From contig JAXHLS010000002.1 in assembly GCA_034522055.1 (NCBI GenBank), forward strand, positions 1,426,001 to 1,490,000: DNA of 64,000 nucleotides. The letters are read 5' to 3'. Shown here one piece after another: positions 24,081 to 59,705 of the stretch. Every line of letters starts with the position of its first letter. The stretch's first letter is position 1. The notes beneath the pieces were generated by a model. It was not told the DNA's origin, ran no database searches, and saw only the letters and a program-made list of their open reading frames with translations. The translations under genes and the position numbers were made by a program. The stretch comes from Gammaproteobacteria bacterium. GTDB lineage: Bacteria; Pseudomonadota; Gammaproteobacteria; JAABTG01.

Positions 24081-24560
24081 GTTTTGGGACCACGAGATAC
24101 GCGAAAGGCGCGAAATGTAAATTATAAACGGGCAGTCCGGGTGATACGAGCACCCTCAAGCTCTACGCTCGCTTGGTGGCCGCCGGCGGCTGCCTCGAGG
24201 CGCAGGCCTGCGGAGGCCGAGAACGAAATACGGCAGTAAATCGAGGAAGTCGTCCGGGAGGCGATGCGCACTCTCATTGGTAAAAAGGACCCACCTGACC
24301 CACTTCCAGCGCCTAAATGCTCCCAGAAAGGCCGCCGAGGAAACTGCGCTGACACAGCTGATGATGAAGTTTCCGCGAGAGGCGTCACCCAGAGCCTGCA
24401 GGCAACGACCCTGAGCCCAAGCGAAAGCCCTTCGACCCATGCTACAAGGAGATGCTGAACTAGCAGGTGTAGGAGGGCCGGAAGCCACGGCGCAGATGAC
24501 AACTTCGAAAATGCCTCCACTACGAATGATTGGAAGGGAGGACTATCCACCTAGATCCTT
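24081..24560. other. Gene-free stretch after DUF368
   Basis: The first part has the third copy of the ACGCGAAAGGCGCGAAA motif (24092-24110). The remainder has short, poorly coding open frames on both strands with no recognisable family. It looks like decayed sequence at the border between conserved chromosome and accessory region. Confidence 0.4.
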
Positions 24561-24905
24561 TCAAAAGATGCTTCTTTTTTTCCCGGTCTTTTTTCCAACG
24601 ACGAGTGCATGAGCCGGCTCTTCTTTCTTTGGATCTCTAACGATCTTTAACTCGCATTCGCGCGCCAGTCCCGCCTTAAAGCCGACCAACCCAAAACCGG
24701 CATGGCCCATTAGGATATCTATAGGCTCGCGTCCAGCTTCAATCAGTTTGTCCTCGGCTGCGACCGACAGTTCTTGGTCATCAAAATTTGCCGACGATGG
24801 CCCGACGCCCTCAGTAGAGTCATCTGATACTACTTGGTAGGGAGGAATTCTTCTGTATAGCTCACAACCATCTTCGATCGAGGTATCATCATCGCAATCA
24901 TCCAT
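24561..24905 (-). CDS. Small acidic hypothetical protein, third gene of the TIGR04255 cassette
   Basis: A 114-residue protein with a strongly acidic N terminus (MDDCDDDTSIED), then RRIPPYQVVSDD and PSSANFDDQELSV, and a conserved-looking C-terminal half with GHAGFGLVGFKAGLARE and EEPAHALVVGKKTGKK. I have the impression of a family of this shape (RIPP.....SSA.F.D ... AG..R.C ... DP...EPAHA.V.GKK) in diverse bacteria, but no function is known to me. It lies 42 bases downstream of the second gene on the same strand, is AT-richer than the host, and probably belongs to the same operon. Confidence 0.6.
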   Translation of the reverse strand: MDDCDDDTSIEDGCELYRRIPPYQVVSDDSTEGVGPSSANFDDQELSVAAEDKLIEAGREPIDILMGHAGFGLVGFKAGLARECELKIVRDPKKEEPAHALVVGKKTGKKRSIF

Positions 24906-24947
24906 GGCGTTCGCCCCGGAAACATTCTTAATGCTGCCGAGAGATAA

Positions 24948-25448
24948 TCATCTTCTACTAATACACTCAATGAAGTGGGAGAGTGGTGAGAGATCATAAG
25001 ATAATTCTCCTTCCCACTCGGGGCCCTGCGACGCCTCATCTTCAAAGAATACTTCTAACCTATCAATTGCAAGCACCTTTACTTCTAGGTCGATTCCGTT
25101 TAAATGCCACTCAACCTGCAGGTTGCCCTCACTTGTAGGTATTACAGTAGGAATTGGTGTTTGCGGTTTTGAAATTTCCGAGAGTAGCCGAAGGGTATGA
25201 ATGGCACACTCAACATATACCGGTTTCGCACCATAGGAATCCCAGTTTTCGGGTAGGTTAATCAACTCATTAAGTCGCTCTGTTATCTCCTGCAACCAAC
25301 CCGGTTGACTTGCCACGGAAAGGGTCGCTTGGTTGTCAAGCGATGTCGTATCTCTAGCACGAATCAACTCATAAGCATAACGTCCCGTTAGTAAGGAGGA
25401 AAAGTCACTGCCGCCCGTAGGATCTAACGCTAGCTTATTTGCTGGCAT
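24948..25448 (-). CDS. Hypothetical protein, second gene of the TIGR04255 cassette
   Basis: This 166-residue protein is not recognised. Its centre has the segment LINLPENWDSYGAKPV, a 'leaf of about ENWDSYG' motif seen in several phage- and defence-linked small proteins. It is followed by a beta-rich half (GNLQVEWHLNGIDLEVKVLA, DRLEVFFEDE). There is no signal peptide or membrane helix. Its start overlaps the end of the TIGR04255 gene by 14 bases, so the two are translationally coupled. Codon use is AT-richer than in the flanking chromosome, in keeping with recent transfer. Confidence 0.7.
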   Translation of the reverse strand: MPANKLALDPTGGSDFSSLLTGRYAYELIRARDTTSLDNQATLSVASQPGWLQEITERLNELINLPENWDSYGAKPVYVECAIHTLRLLSEISKPQTPIPTVIPTSEGNLQVEWHLNGIDLEVKVLAIDRLEVFFEDEASQGPEWEGELSYDLSPLSHFIECISRR

Positions 25449-26289
25449 CCTTTCGTCCCCATGCGTTGTGCATCTTCTCGGTTGTGATTGCAGCGAAGCC
25501 GTTTACGATGCGCTTTCGGCCAAGATCAAGAAATGTAGTTACTCCGTCTACACCTTTTCCTATCGGACGACCACGAGCCGTAAGTTTCAATAGGAAAAGT
25601 GGGCTGTTATCGACAGCGCGAAATGCCGGCTCCAATGAGATGTGTAACCGGCCCGCAAATTCTCCGTTGGCATCTTTGATTAAATGACGAGATTGAACCC
25701 TAATATCTTCTGCCTCGTCAATGTTCGGCTCTTCGTCTAGCCCATTCCAGTATTTGAATACATTTCCAATCTGGTCAAACCGCTCCCATTCGACACCAGA
25801 AACAATATGATTTACGTAGGTAACTTCACATTGGTTTGGTTCTAGTTCTCCGAGCCCCTCCTTTTTTATGAACGCTCGAAAAATCTCTAACTCGTCTTTG
25901 AATGTCTTTCGAACGTTGGGATAGCACGGATATTCCTCGTTGTCAGAGGCCTTTTTCCAATTATGAATGAATCGGTCTTGTTGAACTTGGATTAGTTCCG
26001 TTCCAAGCTCATTGACAAACCAAACGCGTGGTACTGGAGGCGTTCCGACCATCTCCAGTTTGATCGAGGCTTTCGATGAACCGCGAGCCCCAAGAGTTTC
26101 GATCACTGGATTAAGGGGAGAATGCTCCTCTACGCTCGGGAACCGATTTCTGAGCTCCATCCACATAAGCCCAAAGTGCGGCGTATGCAGAGAGCGTAGA
26201 GGCTTAAACTGAACCGACAGCGCAACTTCAACCAGCGGCGGGCGCTCAAAATCCGGCAACCTATCCTCTTCGCCGCCCATCTCTCTCAT
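25435..26289 (-). CDS. TIGR04255 family protein
   Basis: A 284-residue protein starts (after a short polar lead) with the family hallmark DFERPPLVEVALSVQFKPL and contains the recurring IETLGARGSS, RVWFVNELGTELIQVQQDRF and YVNHIV segments of the TIGR04255 family. That family is sporadically distributed and has no known function. The protein is soluble, with alternating beta strands. It is the first gene of a three-gene minus-strand operon (24561-26289). The patchy distribution, lower GC and position in a defence island suggest an accessory conflict system; this is inference. Confidence 0.8.
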   Translation of the reverse strand: MREMGGEEDRLPDFERPPLVEVALSVQFKPLRSLHTPHFGLMWMELRNRFPSVEEHSPLNPVIETLGARGSSKASIKLEMVGTPPVPRVWFVNELGTELIQVQQDRFIHNWKKASDNEEYPCYPNVRKTFKDELEIFRAFIKKEGLGELEPNQCEVTYVNHIVSGVEWERFDQIGNVFKYWNGLDEEPNIDEAEDIRVQSRHLIKDANGEFAGRLHISLEPAFRAVDNSPLFLLKLTARGRPIGKGVDGVTTFLDLGRKRIVNGFAAITTEKMHNAWGRKDASK

Positions 26290-26338: not shown

Positions 26339-26581
26339 TTACACGGTCACTAGCTTCGGTACCCTTCGTTGCCTTCGACCCGCCTTTTGGACGGGTTTCA
26401 GTTTCAAGAAGCCTTCTCGGACCATTCTTTCGATTCCATTCTCCACGAAATGCTTCGCCACCTCCGAAGGGGTAACTCCATGGATCCCAATCTGGGCCAA
26501 ATCCTCGAGATAGGAGGCATTCTGCGCCGAGAGAGTGATAAAGACTCTCTCGCTGTCCATCTTGTTCGGCTTCCTCGACAT
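26339..26581 (-). CDS. Small ribbon-helix-helix-like protein
   Basis: 80 residues from the ATG giving MSRKPNKMDSERVFITLSAQ; the open frame extends 11 codons further, less plausibly. The strand ERVFITLS followed by two predicted helices (NASYLEDLAQIG, TPSEVAKHFVENGIERMVREGFL) fits the ribbon-helix-helix DNA-binding fold of antitoxins and small repressors. The C terminus is basic. It is encoded upstream of and on the same strand as the TIGR04255 gene (gap about 50 bases), so it might regulate that operon. Confidence 0.6.
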   Translation of the reverse strand: MSRKPNKMDSERVFITLSAQNASYLEDLAQIGIHGVTPSEVAKHFVENGIERMVREGFLKLKPVQKAGRRQRRVPKLVTV

Positions 26582-26616
26582 GATACTGAGAAATCCTAGC
26601 AAAATCTGTGTCAATA

Positions 26617-28395: not shown

Positions 28396-28441
28396 CAATC
28401 GGCTCCATGGGGCCTACGGCCCATGAGCCGCGGCGTTAGCG
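28391..28441 (+). repeat. attC-like integron recombination site 1
   Basis: CATAACAATCGGCTC at one end and GAGCCGCGGCGTTAGCG at the other are complementary with extrahelical bases; the centre (ATGGGGCC TAC GGCCCAT) folds as an imperfect hairpin. AAC and GTT are in the positions of the R'' and R' core sites. It begins within the last codons of brnA. At 51 bp it is a little shorter than most attC sites. Confidence 0.6.
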
Positions 28442-28473
28442 GCAACAACAGAACAAGTAAGGAGGTGATGACG

Positions 28474-28686
28474 ATGAAAAACGAATATACCGCTGTTGTG
28501 AAACAGGAAGATGATTGGTGGGTGGGATGGATTGAGGAAGTTCCTGGAGTGAATTGCCAGGAAAAAACTTGCGAGGAATTGAAGGAAACTTTGGAAGTCA
28601 CGCTAAGAGAGGCTTTGGAGTTTAATCGCCAAGATGCGTTGACTGCTGCTGGTGGCGATTACAAGGAAGAAAAAATCGCAATATGA
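28474..28686 (+). CDS. hicB: HicB-family antitoxin
   Basis: 70 residues: EYTAVVKQEDDWWVGWIEEV PGV and the helix CEELKETLEVTLREALEF are the partially degraded RNase H-like HicB fold that blocks HicA. The ATG at 28474 is preferred to the one at 28468 because AAGGAGG then has an eight-base spacing. No C-terminal DNA-binding domain is present (short HicB type). It overlaps hicA by four bases (ATGA). Confidence 0.85.
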   Translation: MKNEYTAVVKQEDDWWVGWIEEVPGVNCQEKTCEELKETLEVTLREALEFNRQDALTAAGGDYKEEKIAI

Positions 28687-28871
28687 AGAGAAATGAACTT
28701 CTCAAGTACTTGCGTAACCAAGGATGCGAACTTTTACGAGAAGGCGGGAAACATTCATGGTGGCATAATCCCGCGCAGAATAAACGCTCAGCGATCCCTC
28801 GACATCCAGAGATCAAAGATATCCTGGCGAAGAAGATATGCAAAGACCTTGGTATAGAGCCGGTAAAGTAG
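28683..28871 (+). CDS. hicA: HicA-family mRNA interferase toxin
   Basis: 62 residues with a dsRBD-like fold: KRNELLKYLRNQGCELLREG then GGKHSWWHNP, in which the conserved His of the G-K/S-H-x motif is the catalytic residue, and SAIPRHPEIKDILAKKICKD. It appears intact and is co-translated with hicB. The antitoxin-first order is less common than hicA-hicB but well known. An attC-like site begins at its stop codon. Confidence 0.88.
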   Translation: MKRNELLKYLRNQGCELLREGGKHSWWHNPAQNKRSAIPRHPEIKDILAKKICKDLGIEPVK

Positions 28872-28931: not shown

Positions 28932-29350
28932 TTCCGTTAACACAGAGCGTAGGCCAAGATGATCGACGAAGGGAATGAAGTCTCGATCAAGAAAGAGCAA
29001 TGGCATTTTTTTCTCGATGCAGAACGTCGCGATTATGACATCGGCGGTCTTGTGACATCGGCGGTCTTGCGTATCGTGAATCCCTTCTTGCGCAATGCAC
29101 GGTAATTATCGGCGCACTTTTCAGCCATTCCTTTACCGAACATCCCGTACTGGTCCAGGGTCAAAAGGGTTTGCCTTGTTTTGCGAAAACCACGGTCGTT
29201 ACGGTTACGAATGCCTTGAAGGATTTCCAGAAAGATCAAGTCACCCATTGCGACAACGCCTTCGACGATACCCAAATCGAGCGCGTCTGTGTACCTACTT
29301 TGAATACCATTGAGATAATCGATCCAGACACTGGTATCGACCAGTATCAT
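28926..29350 (-). pseudogene. vapC: VapC PIN-domain toxin inactivated by a 17-bp tandem duplication
   Basis: The open part (29350 to 29033, 105 codons) begins MILVDTSVWIDYLNG with the first catalytic Asp and keeps the conserved Glu in LIFLEILQGIR. Near the C terminus the sequence encoding KTADV is duplicated (29036-29069), which shifts the frame and stops it at once. Removing one repeat gives KTADVIIATFCIEKKMPLLF LDRDF and a normal C terminus ending at 28926, including the last active-site Asp. The toxin is therefore almost certainly dead in this copy. The antitoxin gene lies directly upstream. Confidence 0.85.
29036..29069. repeat. 17-bp tandem duplication within vapC
   Basis: TGACATCGGCGGTCTTG occurs twice in a row (29036-29052, 29053-29069) with no mismatch. 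Its length is not a multiple of three, so it is the frameshifting mutation in vapC. Confidence 0.9.
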
Positions 29351-29541
29351 TTACCATCCCTCATCTCGTCGAGGTCGCCTTCCCATTTGATTTTGCCGCG
29401 CAGTTTGCGGACTTCCTGCTGTTGGCTTCGACGCACCAGCAGTTTAAGCCCTTGTTCTACAGCTTCTTTTTTTGTTGCATACCCTGATGCCTCAAGGGCG
29501 TCGGCCATTAGTTTATCGTCTATTACAATGTTGGTTCTCAT
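29347..29541 (-). CDS. vapB: VapB-family antitoxin
   Basis: 64 residues. MRTNIVIDDKLMADALEASG is the typical start of type II VapB/VagC-like proteins with an RHH-like N terminus (TNIVIDD strand), followed by ATKKEAVEQGLKLLV and a toxin-binding C terminus (KLRGKIKWEGDLDEMR). It overlaps vapC by four bases. The gene points against the direction of the other cassette genes, which is common for toxin-antitoxin cassettes with their own promoter. Confidence 0.88.
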   Translation of the reverse strand: MRTNIVIDDKLMADALEASGYATKKEAVEQGLKLLVRRSQQQEVRKLRGKIKWEGDLDEMRDGK

Positions 29542-30309: not shown

Positions 30310-33300
30310 ATGGCTGAGCAGCTCAACCTCGGCGACATCTTCGACATCCCGGAGCGGGTCTACCAGGGGGACCTGGTGTTGAAGCTCACCGACGGGGTGG
30401 CGCACCCCGAGGCCACCCTCGCCCAGTACGTGGTCACGGACCAGCTGGCGGAATCCTTTCGCCTCGCCCTCGACCTCATCCAGTCCGCCCTCGAGACCAA
30501 CCGCAGCAAGGCGGCCTTCCTCCATGGCAGCTTCGGCAGCGGCAAGAGCCACTTCATGGCGGTGCTGAGCCTGCTGCTCTCCGGCAACACCGCGGCCCGC
30601 CGCATCCCCCGCCTGGCCCCGGTGGTGAACCACCATGCCTCCTGGCTGCAGGAGCGCCGGGTGCTGGTGCTGCCCTACCACATGATCGGCGTCACCAGCA
30701 TGGAGTCCGCCATCCTCGGCGGCTACGCCGAGTGGGCCCGCCGGCATCACCCGGACAAGCCGGCCCCCGCCTTAAGACCGCAACCTGCCGGTGATCGCCA
30801 ACGAGCGCCTGCTTAAGCCCAAGGACGAGGCCGCTGCCCGGGCCCTGGCCCAGGCCTTCGAGCAGGCGAGCCAGGTACGCCAGGGGGTGCTGGACACCCT
30901 GCTCACCCGCGACGGGGACAAGGAGATGTTCCGCCTGGTCTACCCCTTCAGCCCGGCCCTGGTGCAGACCCTGGTGGTCGTATCCTCCCTGCTCCAGCGC
31001 GAGCGCACCGCCCTGAAGCTGATGCAGCAGCTGCTGGTGGACCGGCGTGAGGGCTTCCAACTCGGGCAGATCATCCCCGTGGGCGACCTGTTCGACGTGG
31101 TGTCCGAGGGGGACGAGCCCTTCTCCCAGGTGATCCGGGCCCAATTCGAGACCGCCAAGCGCCTGTACCGCGAGAAGCTCCGCCCCCACCTGGAGATGCA
31201 GCACGGCGTGACCGAGTATGACGTTGCCCGCGGCGCCGCGCCGGAAGAAAAGCCCGCGCCTTCACCAACGACGCCCGCCTCGCCAAGACCCTGGTGCTGG
31301 CGGCCCTGGCCCCCGAGGTGGAGGCCCTCAAGGGCCTCACCCCCCAACGGCTGGCGGCCCTGAACCACGGCAGCGTGCGTTCCCCCGTACCGGGGGCCGA
31401 AGGCACCACGGTGCTCAGCCGCCTGCGCAACTGGGCCTCCCAGATGGGCGAGATCAAGTTCTCCGATGAAGGTCCCAGCCCGGTGGTGAGCCTGCAGCTC
31501 ACCGGGGTGGATACGGAGAGCATCGTCCAGAACGCCAAGGAACTGGACAACACCGGCAACCGCATCCGATTGGTGCGGGACACCCTGTTCGGCGACCTCG
31601 GACTGGTGGACGACCAGGTGGCCATGCTCCAGGAGGACGATTACCACTTCACGTGGCGGGGTAGCCGGCGCAGCTGCCGGGTGCTTTTCCGCAACGTGCG
31701 CGATATGCGCCTGGAGGACCTGGAATCCGGGGACGAGTGGCGCCTGGTCATCGACTACCCCTTCGACGACGGAGACCACAGCCCGGCAGACGACCGGGCG
31801 GTGGTGAACGACTACCGCTCGTCCCGCGACTCGACCTTCACCCTGGTGTGGCTGCCCTCCTTCCTCAACGACCGGGCGCAGCAGAACCTCGGGCGCCTGG
31901 TGATCCTGGAGCGCCTGCTCACTGGCGACAACCTCGAGCGTTACGGCGGCAACCTGTCGCCCCAGGACCGACAGCAGGCGCGCCTGCTCCTGGACAACCA
32001 GCGCAACCAACTGCGCCAGCAGCTGAAGGACCAGCTCATGAGCGCCTACGGCCTCAGCACCAGCCGCCGGGACGACCTGGACCAGGCCCATGCCCTGGAC
32101 CAGCACTTCGAATCCCTGGCCACGGGCTTCGCCCCCCGCCCGCCGGTGGGGGGAAACTTCCGGGCATGTGCCGTCGGCCTGCTGGACCAGGCCCTGCGCT
32201 TCCAGTACCCGCAGCACCCGGATTTCGGTGCCGACGAGGTACGGCCCGCCGCCCTCAAGCGGGTGCTCCAGAACGTGCTCGCGGCGGCCGCCGATCCCGA
32301 CCGGCGGGCGGCCATCGACAGGACCCAGCGGGACGAGATGAGGCGCATCGCCGTGCCCCTCGCCCTGGGCGAGATGGGCGAGACCCACTTCGTCCTCGAC
32401 GACCACTGGCGGGAGCACTTCCAGCGCCTGCTGCGCGAGGCGGGAAACCCCGGCCCCCTCACCGTGGGCCAGTTGCGGGCCTGGAGCGACGAGCCCGAGC
32501 CGCGGGGCCTCGTCCGGGAGGTGCAGGATCTGGTGATCCTCACCTTCGCGGTCCAGACCAACCGCGTGTTTTACCGCCACGGTGGACCGGAGGAGCCGAC
32601 CCTCGGCCACCTGGACGACGTTCTCGAATTGCAGGAGGCGGATCTGCCCGAGGCGGAGGCCTGGGAGGAGGCCCGTGACCGCCTGGCCACCCTGTTCGGT
32701 CGCAGCGATACGCCGGCGGTGCGCAACGCCCCCAATGCCGCCCGGCTCCAGCGGGCCCTGGACGACATTATCAAGGCCTATCACGCCCCCACGGAGCGCT
32801 ACGCCCGGGTGCTGGAGGAGCGGCTGGACTCCAGGGGCATCAAAGACTCCGCCCGCCTCGAGACCGCCCGTGCCGCCCAGGCCCTCATGAATGTCATGGC
32901 CAGCGCCGAGGGCAACGCCCGGGTGACTGCCCTCAACGAAGCGCGCCTGACCACCAGCGCGAGCGCCATGGCCAAGGCCATGCACGACGGCGAAGCACTG
33001 GCGCGGGCGCTGGAAGATGTCGACTGGCAGCTCTTCGAGACGGCTCGTAGCCTGCGCGAGCCCTACGGCCAGCAGGCCTTGGCGTTACACGAGGGGATCA
33101 ACGAGGCCCTCGGCAACGACGAGCACGTGGTCGCGCTGCGCCAGCGCCTGCGTGACGCCCAGACCCAGGCCCATCAACTCATTCGCGACGCGTTGCAGCC
33201 GGAGCCGGGAGCCCCACCCGGACCGGGCTCCGTTACGCCCCCGGATAATGGGGAACGCGTCGAAAACATCCAGAAGACCGCTCTGTCTCCGGCCCAGCTG

Positions 33301-33396
33301 AAGGCGGAGGTGGAAGCCGTCCTGACGCGCACTCAGGACGACGTCGTCACCATCGACCTCACCCTCGTGATCCGCACCGGCAACACCCGTCCATGA
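30310..33396 (+). pseudogene. pglY: PglY/BrxC-type ATPase of a type 2 BREX system, internally deleted and frameshifted
   Basis: The first segment (30310-30775) reads FDIPERVYQGDLVLKLTDGV and Walker A HGSFGSGKSHFMAVLSLLL. At about 30775 it jumps from HHPDKPAPA to NLPVIANERLLKPKDEAAAR in another frame. From memory the family has roughly 200 residues between these points, including Walker B, which are missing here. A second shift near 31250 leads to AFTNDARLAKTLVLAALAPE and a clean 700-codon tail to 33396. PglY is the large ATPase of type 2 BREX phage exclusion. With Walker B lost and two shifts, this copy should be inactive. It overlaps pglZ by four bases. Confidence 0.8.
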
Positions 33397-35286
33397 GCGC
33401 CCTCTCTCCGGCAGAGATCATTCATATGGTGAACCGGGTGGGGCGGCGCGGCCCGCGGCCGCGGGTCGTCGCCCTGCGCTGCGATTCGCCGAGGACGGGA
33501 CCGGAGGAGTTGTCCACTTCCCTCGGGCCCGCCCGGGTCCGGGTGTGCCCCAGCAACCTTGCCCTGCGGGAAGCGCTATCCGACGCCGAGGGCCATTACC
33601 TGGGCACCTCGGAGGAAACCGGCTGCACGGTGGTGCTGACCCCCCTGCACAATGGCAGCGTCCCCATGGACATCCGGGCCCGCCTCGCCCGCTACACGGT
33701 GCACGAGCTGGATGCCTGGCAGAGCGTCATGAACATCATGGGGGCGCGGGAGCTGGATCCGCGCATCCGCGGCGAGCGCTGGATGGCCGACGCCCTGCTC
33801 CAGGCCCTGCCGCCCGACGGCGGCACGCCCCTGGTGACCGGTTACCTGGATGCCGACACCGCCTGGAACCGGGTGTTGCAGGGCCTGCTGGGCCTGGCCG
33901 GACCACGTCCCGATGCCCGGGACCTGGTGCGCTGGTCGACCCGGTCCGGCGCCCTCAAGGCGTGGGCCGAGTTGCCCGAGGCCATCCAGGCCGGCATCTC
34001 CAGGCACCTCAAGAGCGGCCTCGGATCCCTGGGTGACGGACTCCTCGGCGCCCTGGGCGCAGGGTGGGGCGAGCACCTGCTGGCCATCGGCCTCGCATGC
34101 GAGGTGGTTTTCCCCGAGGGCCGCCAACGCCGCGCCCTGCACCATCAGGCCGCGGCGCGCCTTGAGCCGTTGCTGGGCGCGCTTCCCCTCGGCCCCAAGG
34201 CAGGACAAACGTGGGCCGAGGCGGCCCGGGGGGTGGTTTCCGGGCTGGAGCAGGACGAGCGGCAACGGGCCACCTATGCCGCCGAGCAATTGCTGCGCGA
34301 GCTGCATGCCGAGGAGCTGGCGGCAGACAGCCTGGTCCTGCCCGCGGGTTGCGGTGCGCACCGCCATCTCCACCCCTCAGCAGCGAGTGGTGGGCATGGT
34401 CATCAACGCCATCGACGACCACCTTGCCAAGTCGGACCAGCTCCAGCTCAGCTGGAAGCTCGGCACCGTACGGTACCTGCAGAGCCTGCTGGCCGAGGCC
34501 GAATCCGCCCGCCGCCTGGTCATCCTGACGGCCGACCATGGCCATGTCCTGGAGAACAGTACGACAGTCCTTCCCGGCGGTGAAGGGGAACGCTGGCGCT
34601 ATGGTGACGGCGAAGAGACCCCGGCCGCAGATGAACGACTCTTTCATGGGCCCCGGGAGCGGGCACTGCATGGCCGGCGCGCGGTCGTCCTACCCGCGGT
34701 GGAGCGGGCCCGCTATGCCACCGCCGGCCATAGACGCCACGGCTACCACGGTGGCGCGACACCCCAGGAGGTGCTGGCCCCCTTCCAGGTCTGGCTGCCC
34801 CTGGGAGAAGATGCGCCGGAGGGCTGGCATATCACTCCCCAGCACCGCCCCCATTGGTGGGAGCCGCGACAGGAGGCGCCCGCGCCCCCACCGAAGCGAG
34901 TTAGCCGCAAGCAGGCGGCCGACAAGCAGCGCTCGCTGTTCCAGGTAGACGCATCACCCGGGGTGAATGATGGCGCGAGCTGGATCGATGGACTGTTGGC
35001 CAGCCCCAACCTGGCGCGCCAGCGCCAGCGGCTCGGCCGCCGGGACCCGGGGCTCGAGCGGCTGCGGGTGTTGCTGGAAACCCTCGACGCCCAGCAAGGT
35101 GGTCCCGTACCCGACCTGCGCCTGGCCGAGGTCTTCGGCCTGCCGCCTTTCCGTCTCGCCGGCCTCATCGCCAACCTGCAGTCGGTGCTGAATCTCGACG
35201 GCTACCCGGTCCTCTCCCATGACCCTGGTGCCGAAGAGGTTCGCCTCGATGTGGCCCTCGCCACGAAACAGTTCGAGGTGAACTAA
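33393..35286 (+). pseudogene. pglZ: PglZ of a type 2 BREX system, internally deleted
   Basis: Frame one (33393 to about 34350) is the BREX-2 type N terminus (ALRCDSPRTGPEELSTSLG ... CTVVLTPLHNG ... ACEVVFPEGRQRRAL). It then jumps at about 34350 to another frame with VRTAISTPQQRVVGMVINAI, followed by the PglZ metal-site segment VILTADHGHVLENSTTVL and the family's C terminus to 35286. From memory full-length BREX-2 PglZ proteins have some 900 or more residues; here the two parts total about 630, and the nucleophile-containing first half of the alkaline-phosphatase-like domain is missing. Probably inactive. Confidence 0.78.
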
Positions 35287-52701: not shown

Positions 52702-55700
52702 TTACAGGAAATCTAATGAGACTTCGAACGGCGCACGAACTTTTGCGAGCTCAATTAGCTCTCGCCCACCGATAGGTAACACTCTCCACAATTCGATGAC
52801 CCCGAATACGTCAGCAACTGTGATTACTTGCGCATCGTCGGAGAGATGTCCCCCTTCGCCATATAGTTTTGCGTTTGACCAAAGCACGTTACCAACGTCG
52901 GTATCCACCAGTGCCACCACCGTCCTATCCAGCCGCCTTCCGTTCAAGAGGGCAAGGGGTCGGGTCCGTGACACGTTCACGGACTTGTTTTCAAGTTTCT
53001 CCAGCCCGACGTCGATCACGGGCTGGGACTGGCCCGCAACGTATTTAGCCAAGCCATTAAACGCGAGAATGTATAGAGTCGGCTGGTCCTGGTACTCGAT
53101 GACCGCGTCGAGTTGAATACTTTGTTGGGCACGAGGCCCAACCTGGAACACAGTTACTTGGTCCGGACCACCACTCACTTGACACGTTGCCTCTTCACAT
53201 ACGATCAGGAAACGCTGGTCGTTGCTCTCCGTAATGTCCGAGGTGAAGAGACGCCCATCTTCGAAGAGGCTGAATTCATATCCGCTCTCGGGGAGACTCA
53301 CACCGCTCGATTCAACAAGCCCCTTCCGCCACCAGCTGAGGCGACAGGATCGCCTTGATCGCAGCACGGGCGCAGACGAATACGCGCTTCCGAGAAGCGG
53401 AAGCTCCTTCACGAAGGTGAATACTGCAAGTTGTTGCCCGTCAAAGAGGGGGTATACGGCGCAAATAGGCTGTGCGAACGTACGTTGCGCCGCGATCTGC
53501 CCTGTCTCAGCAGGAATCTCCACCAAAGTTTTGTCGGAGAAACAATATGCAGTCGAGCCGGTTGCCGTGAGCCGGCAACCCTTCGTCTTCGACGCCGAGT
53601 GATCTTGAAACACTGGATCTGGCTTGGCTTCTTTGTAGAGCGTGTACTCCGACACGCCCTCTTTAGACACTGCGGCTACTAGCATCAGCCTGGACGCAAT
53701 GTCAATATGGTCGACGCGGTAGGCCCGTGCGTCCCACAAATGGCGCCAGGTTATGGAGTCAAATACACTATAGCCGTCTCGATGGTTGACCGCAATGATC
53801 CTTTCCTCACCGCCAAACAATTGAGCAAGTCCTTGCCCGTAGTCGAGTTTAAGCGGGAGAGGATGCTCGAAGAGCAATTCATTGGTCGAGAGTTCGAACA
53901 CTTTAAGCCCGGATTCTGTCAGCACCGCAAGTTGTGCTTCGGAGATTAATCTATGGTCGACAATGCTGTCTGCGGCTGTCTCGACCACAGTTTCCGGCTG
54001 TTCTGGCCTGGTGCGATGGACAACTACCATCTCACTCCCGGTTACCGACACGAGGTCGCTTGAAGGTGAGAACTGTGTGCGCAATGAGAAGCGTGAGCCG
54101 AGAGCTCTGTCGTACGGCGTTTCAAACGAGGTCAACACCTCCTCCGACCACGGGTCCACGACGAGTGTGACGATCCTGGTTACAGACTCGGATTGCACGC
54201 TCACTGCAAGGAGATTTGTGTCCTCCGAAAACACCAGTTCGCTCGCAAGCAGTGGCCGATCGAAAAGCGATATTTCCGCTAACAGCTTATCCCGAAACCG
54301 GACATAGAGGACGCCGTCGCGTGACAATACAGCCAAGTACTTCCCGTCGGTAGAGATACCGTAAGAGCTTACGTTTTTGACTGTCCATGGCTCATATTTC
54401 TCGCGCAGAAAAACGAAGGTCACGTCACCGTGTTGTCCGGCCGTAGACCCCGATTTCAGCAAAAGCACGTCCGGCGTGGCCAGTTGCGGCTTTAGCTGCC
54501 TACCAGCCTCCAAGCCCGTACTCAACTCCACCTGGATAGGGGCCCCTTTCTCGTCCTTGCTAATCTCATAGACCCCCCCAGCTTTCTCGGCAACGACGAA
54601 GCCGTTGCGATCTTTGTGGCAGTCCACAGCAACGTCTTGTAGGACCTTCCACCGCTCGTAGCCACCCTTAGCGGCGGTAAAAATAGTGATCCTGCCGGTC
54701 ATGCCTAGTTGATTCCTCGGTGCCAACAAGAGGAACTCTGCCCCGTGGCAGGCAAGAATGAGATCTTTCGTCTGCAGATCTTGCTGAAAACTGATGGCTC
54801 CGGTATCCCAGTCACGCACCACCACCAGTAACGTCACCAGACAGGCATCCATGTTTGAGAATGTCAAAGATTCGCATTCTGCGGTGCTGGCGTGCTTGGC
54901 CTCCACGGTCAAGATTTGCTTACCGGCCTTCGTCTCTAGGATCTGAACGATGTTGTTCGAAATAACAACGGATGCACCTGCGGGCCCTTGCCTGACAAGC
55001 TTTTTCTGGAGGGAATCGCCCCGCCACACGAGGCGCAAGGTGCCGTCCTCGGTCTCGCCCAGCGCAATTCCACTGCTCCTAGCGTACCCTTCGTCGCGTG
55101 AGACGGTTTGCTCCATCAGATCCACCGAATAGGCGTTTCCGTCGCTGGTGTATACTCTGAGCTGCTGGCCCGTTTCGTCGAACGTTGACGAACTGACACC
55201 CTTGCTTGAGCGGATCGTTGCCGTGGCAGTGGATAAGTATAGAGCCTTTGATAGTAAGCTCTCGCTAGTTATAACGATCGGTCGGTTCTCGTACTCCGGG
55301 TCGTCCGGCAAAGCGGATATGAGCTTGGGTATCGCCGCCCCATAGCGGCCTGCCTGGATGTCTCGTTCGGCCGCTGACGTCAAGGCAATCGAATCCGCCC
55401 GCAACTGATCCCACCGACGTTGTTCCATCTCTTGCCATACATATGTCATAAGGACAAGCAGACCCACGGCCCCTGCGGCCAACATAGAGAGCCTGCGATT
55501 TCGACGTTTACGTGCTCGCTGGGCAAGGTCGTCATAGCGAATACCCAGGATGAACGCGATGATTTTTAGAAGCGCAGCGTTATTCTCCCGCCATGTCGGG
55601 CCAAACTGCACGAAAAGTGGCTGATCAGAAGGATACTCGGCATGGAGCTTAACTTCGTCTGAAGTCCAGGAAGGATGGGATATAACATCCTTTGACGCGT

Positions 55701-56034
55701 TTCCTGGTCTGATCGGCAGGATTCGGTGGCCTTTCCCCTGCCGACGGAACTCGGTCAACTCCATCTTTACCCACTCTGACGAAATCGAGTTCTCGGTGGC
55801 AATCACTAGTAACGTGTCAGATGCCCGCAACGCATCAACGACCGAATTCGTGAGGCTTGGGGCCCCCCCAAACTCTTCGGTGTCGAGAAAGACGGGGGCA
55901 ACCGTCCTGCCCTTAACATCTGATTTGTTAATCTTCAGGTTTCTTGGAAGCGTGTATCTTTCGAGCTGCTTGTGAAGCCAGCCAGCGAACGTCCTGTCGT
56001 GATGACTGTAGCTGATGAATGCGCGATATTTCAT
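52702..56034 (-). CDS. TIR domain-transmembrane-beta-propeller protein
   Basis: 1110 residues. The N-terminal TIR domain starts KYRAFISYSHHDRTFAGWLH and has TLLVIATENSISSEWVKMEL with the WxxxE signature of NAD-cleaving TIRs. A basic stretch RARKRRNRR precedes one membrane helix (LSMLAAGAVGLLVLMTYVW, about residues 183-203). The remaining ~880 residues are repetitive beta-strand units (about a dozen, e.g. YSVFDSITWRHLWDARAYRV, FGVIELWRVLPIGGRELIEL), a WD40/quinoprotein-like propeller. Such TIR-WD fusions are found in scattered bacteria; a sensor (propeller) with an NADase or signalling effector (TIR) is a reasonable guess. GC is lower than the host. Confidence 0.85.
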   Translation of the reverse strand: MKYRAFISYSHHDRTFAGWLHKQLERYTLPRNLKINKSDVKGRTVAPVFLDTEEFGGAPSLTNSVVDALRASDTLLVIATENSISSEWVKMELTEFRRQGKGHRILPIRPGNASKDVISHPSWTSDEVKLHAEYPSDQPLFVQFGPTWRENNAALLKIIAFILGIRYDDLAQRARKRRNRRLSMLAAGAVGLLVLMTYVWQEMEQRRWDQLRADSIALTSAAERDIQAGRYGAAIPKLISALPDDPEYENRPIVITSESLLSKALYLSTATATIRSSKGVSSSTFDETGQQLRVYTSDGNAYSVDLMEQTVSRDEGYARSSGIALGETEDGTLRLVWRGDSLQKKLVRQGPAGASVVISNNIVQILETKAGKQILTVEAKHASTAECESLTFSNMDACLVTLLVVVRDWDTGAISFQQDLQTKDLILACHGAEFLLLAPRNQLGMTGRITIFTAAKGGYERWKVLQDVAVDCHKDRNGFVVAEKAGGVYEISKDEKGAPIQVELSTGLEAGRQLKPQLATPDVLLLKSGSTAGQHGDVTFVFLREKYEPWTVKNVSSYGISTDGKYLAVLSRDGVLYVRFRDKLLAEISLFDRPLLASELVFSEDTNLLAVSVQSESVTRIVTLVVDPWSEEVLTSFETPYDRALGSRFSLRTQFSPSSDLVSVTGSEMVVVHRTRPEQPETVVETAADSIVDHRLISEAQLAVLTESGLKVFELSTNELLFEHPLPLKLDYGQGLAQLFGGEERIIAVNHRDGYSVFDSITWRHLWDARAYRVDHIDIASRLMLVAAVSKEGVSEYTLYKEAKPDPVFQDHSASKTKGCRLTATGSTAYCFSDKTLVEIPAETGQIAAQRTFAQPICAVYPLFDGQQLAVFTFVKELPLLGSAYSSAPVLRSRRSCRLSWWRKGLVESSGVSLPESGYEFSLFEDGRLFTSDITESNDQRFLIVCEEATCQVSGGPDQVTVFQVGPRAQQSIQLDAVIEYQDQPTLYILAFNGLAKYVAGQSQPVIDVGLEKLENKSVNVSRTRPLALLNGRRLDRTVVALVDTDVGNVLWSNAKLYGEGGHLSDDAQVITVADVFGVIELWRVLPIGGRELIELAKVRAPFEVSLDFL

Positions 56035-57058: not shown

Positions 57059-58111
57059 CTACAAGACGATGACGACACTCCGCCGCGCGCGGGTCACGGC
57101 AACGTATAAGCGGTTTCGCTCAATGGGGCTGAGCTTGTTCGGGCCGTCTTTCCCGGACGCAACCCGGACCATCGGTCTGCTTCCAAACAACACGACCCGC
57201 TCATAGGTCGCACCCTTGGAGACGCCGATGTTAATCGCTGGAAGGCCCATGGTGTCGTTGGTCTTCTGCCTGCGCAGCACAGTGACCTCGGCTCCGTATA
57301 TCTGGAGGTACCCGGGTAGTTGAAGGCGAGTCAGTAGGTGGACGCCATCGCCGTCCTCGCCCTCATCGTGGAGGGATGTGGTCGGCTCGTATCCCTCGAA
57401 GAGAGCGTCCGCCCAGTCGAGGATCGCCTGGCAGCATCGGTGACTCTCATTCAGCCACTCGATCTGGATGGTCGCAGCCCGCTTTTCGAGCCACGCTACA
57501 AAGGACGCCCCCTTGTACTTCTTGTTCTTGTTGCTGTCGTCGGTGAAGTATAGCGCCTGCCGGGGATCGCCCACGAGGTGCACGGTGGGAGGCGTCGCCA
57601 TCAGCACGTCCAGTAGGTCGAAATCGTGGCCAGCAAGATCCTGCATTTCGTCAATGTAGATCTCGCTATAGATGGAGGCGAGTCGTTCCATCACCTTGCC
57701 ATCACTGTCCTCGTTGCAGATTAGTGCGAGAGCTGAGGCTCGGTTCTTGTATACGTCACCCTGCTTCGTGAGGTAATAGCTCCGCTGAGTCTTCTTGGCG
57801 AATTTCTGCCACGGAGCGTTTTCGAAGAAAAGCGAACGCACAACGCCGATCTGGCCGAGGAAGGCCAGCTGGTACGGATGGCAGAGCTCGTTGATCAGGA
57901 ACCGATACCACGTGAGGATGTCGACGTTCCGGGGCACGACGCCGCATGCCTGAGCAACTCGACGCTCGATATGATTGCGGTTCTCGATGGTATAGGTAGT
58001 GATGAGCACGCGCTTGCCATCGGCCGCGGCGGCGAGGGCACCGTCGATAAGCCTCTGCGTCTTGCCGGACCCAGCGGCGCCGATGGTGGCCGTGTGCCTA
58101 GGCGAGGTCAT
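57059..58111 (-). CDS. Short UvrD/PcrA-like helicase (GajB-like)
   Basis: 350 residues of a superfamily 1 helicase: motif I IGAAGSGKTQRLIDGAL, II EIYIDEMQDLAGHDFDLLD, III HLVGDPRQALYF, IV WLNESHRCCQAILDWADALF, V GVSKGATYERVVLFG, VI RNRLYVAVTRARRSVVIVL. It is about 150 residues shorter than known GajB proteins, mainly because the accessory subdomains are reduced. Its start lies inside the end of the OLD nuclease gene (14-base overlap), so the two are made together. Role by analogy: activates or is guided by the nuclease partner in phage defence. Confidence 0.88.
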   Translation of the reverse strand: MTSPRHTATIGAAGSGKTQRLIDGALAAAADGKRVLITTYTIENRNHIERRVAQACGVVPRNVDILTWYRFLINELCHPYQLAFLGQIGVVRSLFFENAPWQKFAKKTQRSYYLTKQGDVYKNRASALALICNEDSDGKVMERLASIYSEIYIDEMQDLAGHDFDLLDVLMATPPTVHLVGDPRQALYFTDDSNKNKKYKGASFVAWLEKRAATIQIEWLNESHRCCQAILDWADALFEGYEPTTSLHDEGEDGDGVHLLTRLQLPGYLQIYGAEVTVLRRQKTNDTMGLPAINIGVSKGATYERVVLFGSRPMVRVASGKDGPNKLSPIERNRLYVAVTRARRSVVIVL

Positions 58112-59705
58112 CCAGCGCCTGGGTAATGTACGTCGGCATGGTGAGAGTGCTCTCGGACTCGAAGATGGCTAGTGCCGCGGACGTCTTGTTTGCCTCCATC
58201 CACTTCAGGAGGTCGGCGTCGGTGGTGTCCGCGCGGCCGAGCACAGTGTTGAGCGCTTCAAGGCTGCTGGCCGCGAGCAACTGCGGTTCGAGGGTCTTGA
58301 GCGTCGTGTCGGCGCCTACCCGCACGGTGATGAAGTCGTGCTCGGTGTACTGGTCGTAGCCGGCGAGGACGTCCGCGTGAGCCTTACCGTCGTTGTCCCT
58401 CACCACCACGACGCGCCTCTGCAACGGAACGGCGAGATCCAGGAAGCGCTTGAACGACAGTCCGCGCGTACTGAGGATGTCGACGCCGTCGTGGATAGGC
58501 AGCTTTTGGTATCGGTCTTTGTAGGCCCGCTGAAGGATCAGCTCATCCGAGGGGCCCTCGACAAGCACGACCTTCCGGGCAAGCACGAGCCGGAGCGTGT
58601 CGTAGCCGGGCAGCTTCTTAAAATAATCCTCGGAGTCTGCACTGAGCTCGGTAATGCGGAGCGATGTACTATCCCCACCCATCAGGATCAGGCTCGCGAG
58701 GCCGAGCTTATTGAGGACGTAGGAACTGTGCGTGGTGATGAACACTTGCTTGCCTTCGCACTTTGCGAGGATCTTCTCCAGAAGGATATTCAGCGACGCA
58801 AAGGACAGGTGGTTCTCCGGTTCCTCGACCAACATGACGTGCGTGTCGTCAACCTGACGGCTCAAGGCCAGGAGAACCTTCAGTCGGCTTTGCTCTCCCT
58901 TACCGACGTATGGAAGGGGGAGCTGGTCGAGGTGTGGTGCGAGGCTGCTCTCCCAGGTTGACCGATGAGAGATGTCGATCGAGAGGCTGAGGCATCGGTC
59001 CGACACGTCGCCGTGGGACTCAGTCAGCTTCTCATTGATGGTATTGACAGACCCCTGCGCGGCGAAAGCTTCACGGATGCTGCGGTACTGACGTGAGAGC
59101 TCCGCCCGCTCGGGCTTGGTGAGTGTGCTTCCGATTATCTGCTGTAGGTAGTAGTCAGCACCGGACTGCAGCCGGATGGTCGAGGCGTCGATCATGGACA
59201 CCGTCGCTGGCACGCCCCTTGCGTTGATTGGATTGCCAGAGAACCCGAGCCAGTCGACCCGGTAGTACTCGACGGGGATCAGTTTAAGATCAGTCGGGTC
59301 TTGGATGAACTCGTGAAACTCGTCAGCCAGGTCGGGGTCGGGATAGATCCGGATTCGGATGCCCGGACTATCTTCACCAAGGGCGTTGTTCGTTCCTTGA
59401 AGCTTCGCAGTGTCTTCGTTCTTCTCCATGAAGAGATCGATGATGATCTCCGGAGGCTCCACCTTCTGGTGGGCTTGAAGCGCAGCGAAGTAGGCGCCGG
59501 TTGACTTGCCGTTGAAGTGAAACGGCGAGAGATCTGTGATGATCGATCGGCCGCCGACTCGCCCGGTTAGGGCGAGGCCAATCGCCTCGACGAGGGTTGA
59601 CTTCCCGCTGTCGTTGTCGCCGACGAGGATGTTGAGACCCTTGTTGAAGTCGAGCGTGTAGTCCTCGTAGCACCGGTAGTTCTTGATGACGATTTTGGAA
59701 AGCAC
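58098..59705 (-). CDS. OLD-family ATPase-TOPRIM nuclease (GajA-like)
   Basis: 535 residues. The ABC-type ATPase half has Walker A GDNDSGKSTLVEAIGLAL, the signature-like GKGEQSRLKVLLAL and Walker B VMLVEEPENHLS, with the H-loop TTHSSYVLN. The TOPRIM half has VVLVEGPSDELILQRAY and VVVRDNDGKA (Glu and DxD metal ligands). This is the architecture of GajA, the Gabija nicking nuclease, and of class 2 OLD proteins. With the overlapping UvrD-like gene it forms a Gabija-like pair. Length is close to known GajA proteins. Confidence 0.88.
   Translation of the reverse strand: MLSKIVIKNYRCYEDYTLDFNKGLNILVGDNDSGKSTLVEAIGLALTGRVGGRSIITDLSPFHFNGKSTGAYFAALQAHQKVEPPEIIIDLFMEKNEDTAKLQGTNNALGEDSPGIRIRIYPDPDLADEFHEFIQDPTDLKLIPVEYYRVDWLGFSGNPINARGVPATVSMIDASTIRLQSGADYYLQQIIGSTLTKPERAELSRQYRSIREAFAAQGSVNTINEKLTESHGDVSDRCLSLSIDISHRSTWESSLAPHLDQLPLPYVGKGEQSRLKVLLALSRQVDDTHVMLVEEPENHLSFASLNILLEKILAKCEGKQVFITTHSSYVLNKLGLASLILMGGDSTSLRITELSADSEDYFKKLPGYDTLRLVLARKVVLVEGPSDELILQRAYKDRYQKLPIHDGVDILSTRGLSFKRFLDLAVPLQRRVVVVRDNDGKAHADVLAGYDQYTEHDFITVRVGADTTLKTLEPQLLAASSLEALNTVLGRADTTDADLLKWMEANKTSAALAIFESESTLTMPTYITQALDDLA

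Follow-up and report, generated by a model that had tools for sequence, protein, structure and literature searches.

Three adjacent genes on the minus strand, headed by a TIGR04255 family protein and referred to here as genes 1, 2 and 3, are strongly confirmed as a copy of a cassette that is widespread among bacteria. It appears to be a three-part toxin–antitoxin or phage-defence system of an undescribed kind. The copy was studied within a 64,000-nucleotide stretch of gammaproteobacterial DNA, the whole of which is called the window. The name TIGR04255 reflects the sporadic spread of this protein family, which is unmentioned in the literature searched, a body of text that covered few subscription papers or preprints.

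All three open reading frames (ORFs) were found in the minus-strand layout and at the coordinates that an earlier note on this DNA had given (Table 1), and the 14 bases that it described as shared by the ends of gene 1 and gene 2 are present. Its description of the unit as AT-richer also holds, the G+C content being 0.48 vs 0.66 in the preceding 24 kb, as does the location in a defence island: the unit lies at the edge of a region with Fic, HsdR-like, TIR and GajA/GajB genes and a broken BREX. Pfam recognised none of the three unit proteins, and profile searches of genes 1, 2 and 3 against PDB sequences returned nothing meaningful.

Table 1. Coordinates of the three-gene unit and of adjoining features within the window.
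Feature	Position	Strand	Length	Remarks
Gene 1	25435..26289	(-)	284 aa	TIGR04255 family protein, NCBIfam match
Gene 2	24948..25448	(-)	166 aa	ENWDSYG motif; matches C-terminal third of PADLOC PDC-M32A
Gene 3	24561..24905	(-)	114 aa	EPAHALVVGKKTGKK; predicted ART fold (model); matches PADLOC PDC-M32B
Out-of-frame remnant of gene 3 C-terminus	24520..24600	(-)		Three-frame translation compared with family C-termini
ORF upstream of the unit	26339..26614	(-)	91 aa	RHH-like by eye

Several other elements of the island were recorded. A HicB/HicA-like pair, identified by eye only, occupies window positions 28423-28871, and a VapBC-like pair is located at 29033-29541, where the PIN gene seems to switch frame near its C-terminus (TADVIIATFCIEKKMPLLFLDRDF in the other frame). 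The BREX remnant at 30310-35286 contains pieces of BrxC in different frames, which match profile positions 4-153, 357-507 and 526-1231, as well as a split PglZ that lacks about 265 profile positions. BrxD and BrxHI come next, and no pglX was seen between BrxC and PglZ. A 1110-aa protein encoded at 52702-56034 exhibits an N-terminal TIR domain, the other approximately 1000 residues matching nothing in Pfam, and adjoining minus-strand GajB and GajA genes (Gabija) were identified by PADLOC at 57059-59705 (E 1e-87 and 4e-198). The earlier note had also placed a possible RHH regulator upstream of the unit. The 91-aa ORF in question gave no match in Pfam, NCBIfam or PADLOC searches and a weak match to phrog_23040. 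Among the 80 related units, a single one (L125; E 2e-4) has a relative of this ORF alongside; the RHH gene was consequently rejected as a conserved regulator, and the ORF probably lies outside the unit.

The supposition of the earlier note that similar neighbours occur elsewhere was borne out by a survey of gene neighbourhoods, and the lack of a recurring association, which the note had named as its refutation, was not observed. A scan of the gene 1 alignment against 84,980 species genomes yielded 206 relatives, the best 80 of which were kept. Gene 2 was found directly downstream in 75 of these 80 and gene 3 in 70, and the corresponding numbers for the 77 loci with sufficient sequence are 73 and 69. 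Judged by organism names, the loci belong to Acidobacteriota, Pseudomonadota, Planctomycetota, Nitrospirota, Actinomycetota, Gemmatimonadota and other phyla. Moreover, the pairwise distances of the three proteins correlate with each other (r 0.59-0.68 over 67 loci), compared with a maximum of 0.18 in 500 permutations. That three unrelated genes came to lie side by side in a degraded island can therefore hardly be credited: the broken state of gene 3, VapC, BrxC and PglZ in the window would fit such a history, whereas order and spacing are shared in about 70 of the 80 relatives and the genes co-vary. Chance co-occurrence was rejected on the strength of the survey and the co-variation.

The same trio, including the 14-base overlap, is present on a plasmid of Mycobacterium paragordonae, where it is annotated as a TIGR04255 protein and two hypothetical proteins. 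Three loci are situated on viral contigs, two of them with the whole unit, and one on a plasmid, while the unit was absent from the phage collection searched; with these counts, a phage-borne origin was rejected. Integrase-like genes were seen by eye beside the unit in four loci. A recurrent fourth gene was likewise rejected, as the neighbours shared by a few Terriglobia/Bryobacterales reflect local synteny of their chromosomes. Within this group, five loci with common surroundings (L079, L084, L089, L092 and L095) carry a TIGR04255 gene from which gene 3 and, in most of them, gene 2 have disappeared, an example of natural loss.

According to its structural model, gene 3 encodes a protein of the ADP-ribosyltransferase (ART) fold. 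The fold was modelled on the relative L065, from 68 sequences, with a pLDDT of 97.1. In comparisons of this model by VIA-align, 27 of the 28 rows with a Z of at least 2 were ART-fold proteins from about ten families, with Z values of up to 8.2, the remaining row being an SH3 domain. These rows include Tpt1/KptA, HopF2, Tse2, CC0527, DarT, pierisin, TreTu, SdeA, NarE and Tne2, all of which we take to be of the ART fold. Foldseek also ranked Tpt1/KptA best, with weak E-values of only 0.2, and profile comparison (hhalign) of gene 3 with KptA and RES alignments gave no match, so that the ART assignment is purely structural. The likeness to the small ART-fold proteins Tpt1/KptA (C-lobe), Tse2 and DarT thus consists in the fold (VIA Z 8.2, 5.7 and 5.0), whereas a sequence link is undetectable for KptA and RES, the two that were tested, and the gene 3 family, in contrast to these proteins, comprises only about 128 residues.

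Among 43 very divergent third genes, an R...S...H triad is conserved (R20 in 41 of 43, S53 in 38 of 43 and H105 in 40 of 42). By strand order, R20 and S53 fit ART motifs I and II, and H105 is located at motif III. Glutamate is usual at this motif of ART proteins. With histidine in its place, as also distinguishes gene 3 from the small ART-fold proteins named above, the protein may be inactive or use other chemistry. It has to be considered, as an improbable alternative, that gene 3 has the ART fold without transferase activity and binds nucleotide or RNA, and that the unit serves a housekeeping or regulatory purpose. The exchange of Glu for His at motif III and the missing sequence-level link to KptA or RES would agree with this, yet R, S and H are retained in very remote relatives, and the patchy spread over many phyla together with the low G+C content suits a mobile conflict module better than a housekeeping role.

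Gene 2 is composed of a variable N-terminal tail and a [N/G]WDxxG...EGx[I/L]QxEW domain. In PADLOC searches, it matches PDC-M32A at profile positions 257-358 only, i.e., in the C-terminal third (E 1.3e-10), and all 75 of the 75 gene 2 relatives match PDC-M32A; profile comparison of gene 2 with the C-terminus of PDC-M32A gave an E-value of 1.2e-10. Gene 3 of the window matches PDC-M32B (PDLC04579) with an E-value of 8e-4, and this match was obtained for 14 of 68 gene 3 relatives (best 4.6e-8). Both the gene 2 and the gene 3 alignments were too variable for pattern scans. PDC-M32 is a PADLOC candidate consisting of genes A and B that has been reported in Sinorhizobium prophages (PMC12429752), and no published mechanism for it was found in the literature searched. 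The homologue of gene 3 is PDC-M32B, that of gene 2 is the C-terminal domain of PDC-M32A, and the order is conserved; the core formed by genes 2 and 3 is, by these sequence comparisons, a divergent relative of PDC-M32. However, gene 2 encodes a protein of its own, with TIGR04255 at the head of the unit, whereas PDC-M32A is a protein of 375 aa whose N-terminal approximately 250 residues showed no relationship to TIGR04255 and gene 1 in profile comparison. The possibility that TIGR04255 corresponds to the N-terminus of PDC-M32A was rejected on this basis and, since this N-terminus is different, the unit of the window represents a TIGR04255-headed variant.

A frameshift in gene 3 has probably impaired the copy in the window. 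The annotated end of the gene, GKKTGKKRSIF, comes after a frameshift in an A-rich tract, and another frame holds KKHLLKGSRWIVLPSNHS followed by a stop at 24520-24522, which resembles family C-termini such as KRFLARHAVWVV. Gene 3 is thereby truncated, and the part lost includes the last, C-terminal helix of the L065 model. In the same island, BrxC and PglZ are split with profile segments missing and the VapC-like gene has also changed frame, which makes genuine decay likely; the HsdR-like, TIR and GajA genes are intact. A local assembly error could also be the source of the frameshift in gene 3.

The first gene matches NCBIfam TIGR04255 with 66.1 bits (cut-off 30; E 4e-18) over model positions 2-252 of 252, and the invariants of the family are Q101, Q103, N110, W111, Y120, E155, Y158 and N160. 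The protein models with a pLDDT of 92.9 as a duplicated TBP-like/helix-grip fold, a description by which no ancestry is claimed. TBP-domain/helix-grip proteins share the tandem beta-alpha-beta(4)-alpha arrangement of the model, and Foldseek ranked TBP first (E 2e-4). However, the TM-scores are low (0.25-0.43), and VIA lists guanidino kinases first, with a Z of 8.8 that is near background. SecB was absent among the listed Foldseek and VIA matches of gene 1, and neither gene 1 nor genes 2 and 3 matched a SecB family in Pfam or NCBIfam.

What TIGR04255 heads was further analyzed at 72 loci picked by the TIGR04255 model alone from about 900 genomes of the same phylum, whose downstream genes were read. 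At most of them, TIGR04255 heads a three-gene unit, and the class of the third gene is exchanged between loci. An ART-like third gene was found in about 35 of the 72 (two tentative). Eighteen loci form a class marked by a helix-turn-helix (HTH) gene in the middle and a '(V)LSHxC' gene in third position, both being recognised in 16. The third gene is of an 'LSNTCD' type in six loci and of another unnamed family in five. Established toxins occupy the third position in a few instances: PemK in one locus (E 1.1e-18), PIN in two (E 1.4e-8 and 2.2e-6) and YhaV in one (E 6.8e-46). HEPN-like third genes were noted by eye in two loci, without Pfam confirmation, and two were ambiguous, so that the third genes outside the ART-like class are mostly of unnamed families. 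A replacement also occurs within the close family, as in L055 a PIN gene (E 1.5e-15) takes the place of gene 3, and gene 2 of this locus has an extra C-terminal tail that appears antitoxin-like by eye. In the second large TIGR04255 class (L006, L009, L014, L016, L175, L179 and others), the HTH gene is followed by a '(V)LSHxC' protein of about 280 aa. Five loci (L004, L005, L176, L178 and L204) exhibit a third gene of about 220 aa with the conserved Cys/His motifs CHLAWH and TCATF, peptidase-like by eye. HTH domains are present in many antitoxins. The statement of the earlier note that all three proteins are of unknown function proved too weak, given the PDC-M32 relatives of genes 2 and 3, the predicted ART fold of gene 3 and the PemK, PIN and YhaV genes behind TIGR04255.

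The presence of PemK, PIN and YhaV toxins at the third position leads to a reading of the unit as a toxin–antitoxin pair with an added subunit. In this three-part toxin–antitoxin-like module, to which we give a slightly better than even chance, gene 3 would act as toxin and gene 2 as its antitoxin, while gene 1 would supply a control subunit shared by many toxin pairs. The toxin would use NAD+ via the unusual R-S-H triad and modify nucleic acid or protein, thereby halting growth or phage replication, and the NWDxxG domain of gene 2 would bind and block it. Gene 1 would guard the antitoxin, perhaps via the poorly conserved N-terminal tail of gene 2, or sense infection; once gene 1 is occupied or titrated, the antitoxin would fail and the toxin would act, as with the chaperone of TAC and CmdTAC systems. 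It is only in other classes of TIGR04255 units, several in number, that the middle gene commonly has a hydrophobic tail, and the gene 2 tail of the window has no obvious hydrophobic patch. As gene 1 also shows no SecB sequence homology, the putative guarding step is an analogy.

Alternatively, the unit may be a phage-defence system built from sensor and effector, in which gene 1, together with gene 2, recognises a phage molecule and activates gene 3 as an ART effector, gene 2 being a scaffold or activator instead of an antitoxin. This is rather unlikely in our estimation, even if the gene 2 and gene 3 relatives in the phage-defence candidate PDC-M32, the position of the unit within a defence island and the duplicated saddle-like fold predicted for TIGR04255, with its invariant set of polar residues, are all consistent with it; the classical toxins PemK, YhaV and PIN behind TIGR04255 and the HTH middle genes instead favour a toxin–antitoxin logic. 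The two readings overlap, since many toxin–antitoxin systems defend.

The proposed toxin–antitoxin module can be compared with systems in which a third component is established. CmdTAC is a three-gene defence system of an ART toxin, an antitoxin and a SecB-like chaperone, which is triggered by a phage capsid protein that occupies the chaperone (PMC11618068), and TAC chaperones partner unrelated antitoxin families (PMC5105189). Unlike these, the unit has as its third component TIGR04255, with a TBP-like model and without SecB homology; its triad is R-S-H vs H-Y-[E,D,Q] in CmdT, the gene order is different, and no antitoxin relationship to CmdTAC or TAC was seen. What they have in common are the number of three genes, the ART fold of the CmdTAC toxin and a third component that partners unrelated toxin families. 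Tentatively, and with a chance that we put a little short of even, TIGR04255 would be a new, TBP-like control-subunit family of three-part toxin–antitoxin systems that plays the part of the SecB-like chaperone, with partners of at least four recognisable toxin kinds (ART-like, PemK, PIN and YhaV) and several unnamed ones, the commonest being a new ART-like R-S-H family. The link to swappable toxins gives TIGR04255 a testable role and turns PDC-M32 from an anonymous defence candidate into a probable ART-type toxin module. In comparison with TAC and CmdTAC, it suggests that third components attachable to unrelated toxin–antitoxin pairs are not limited to SecB-like chaperones.
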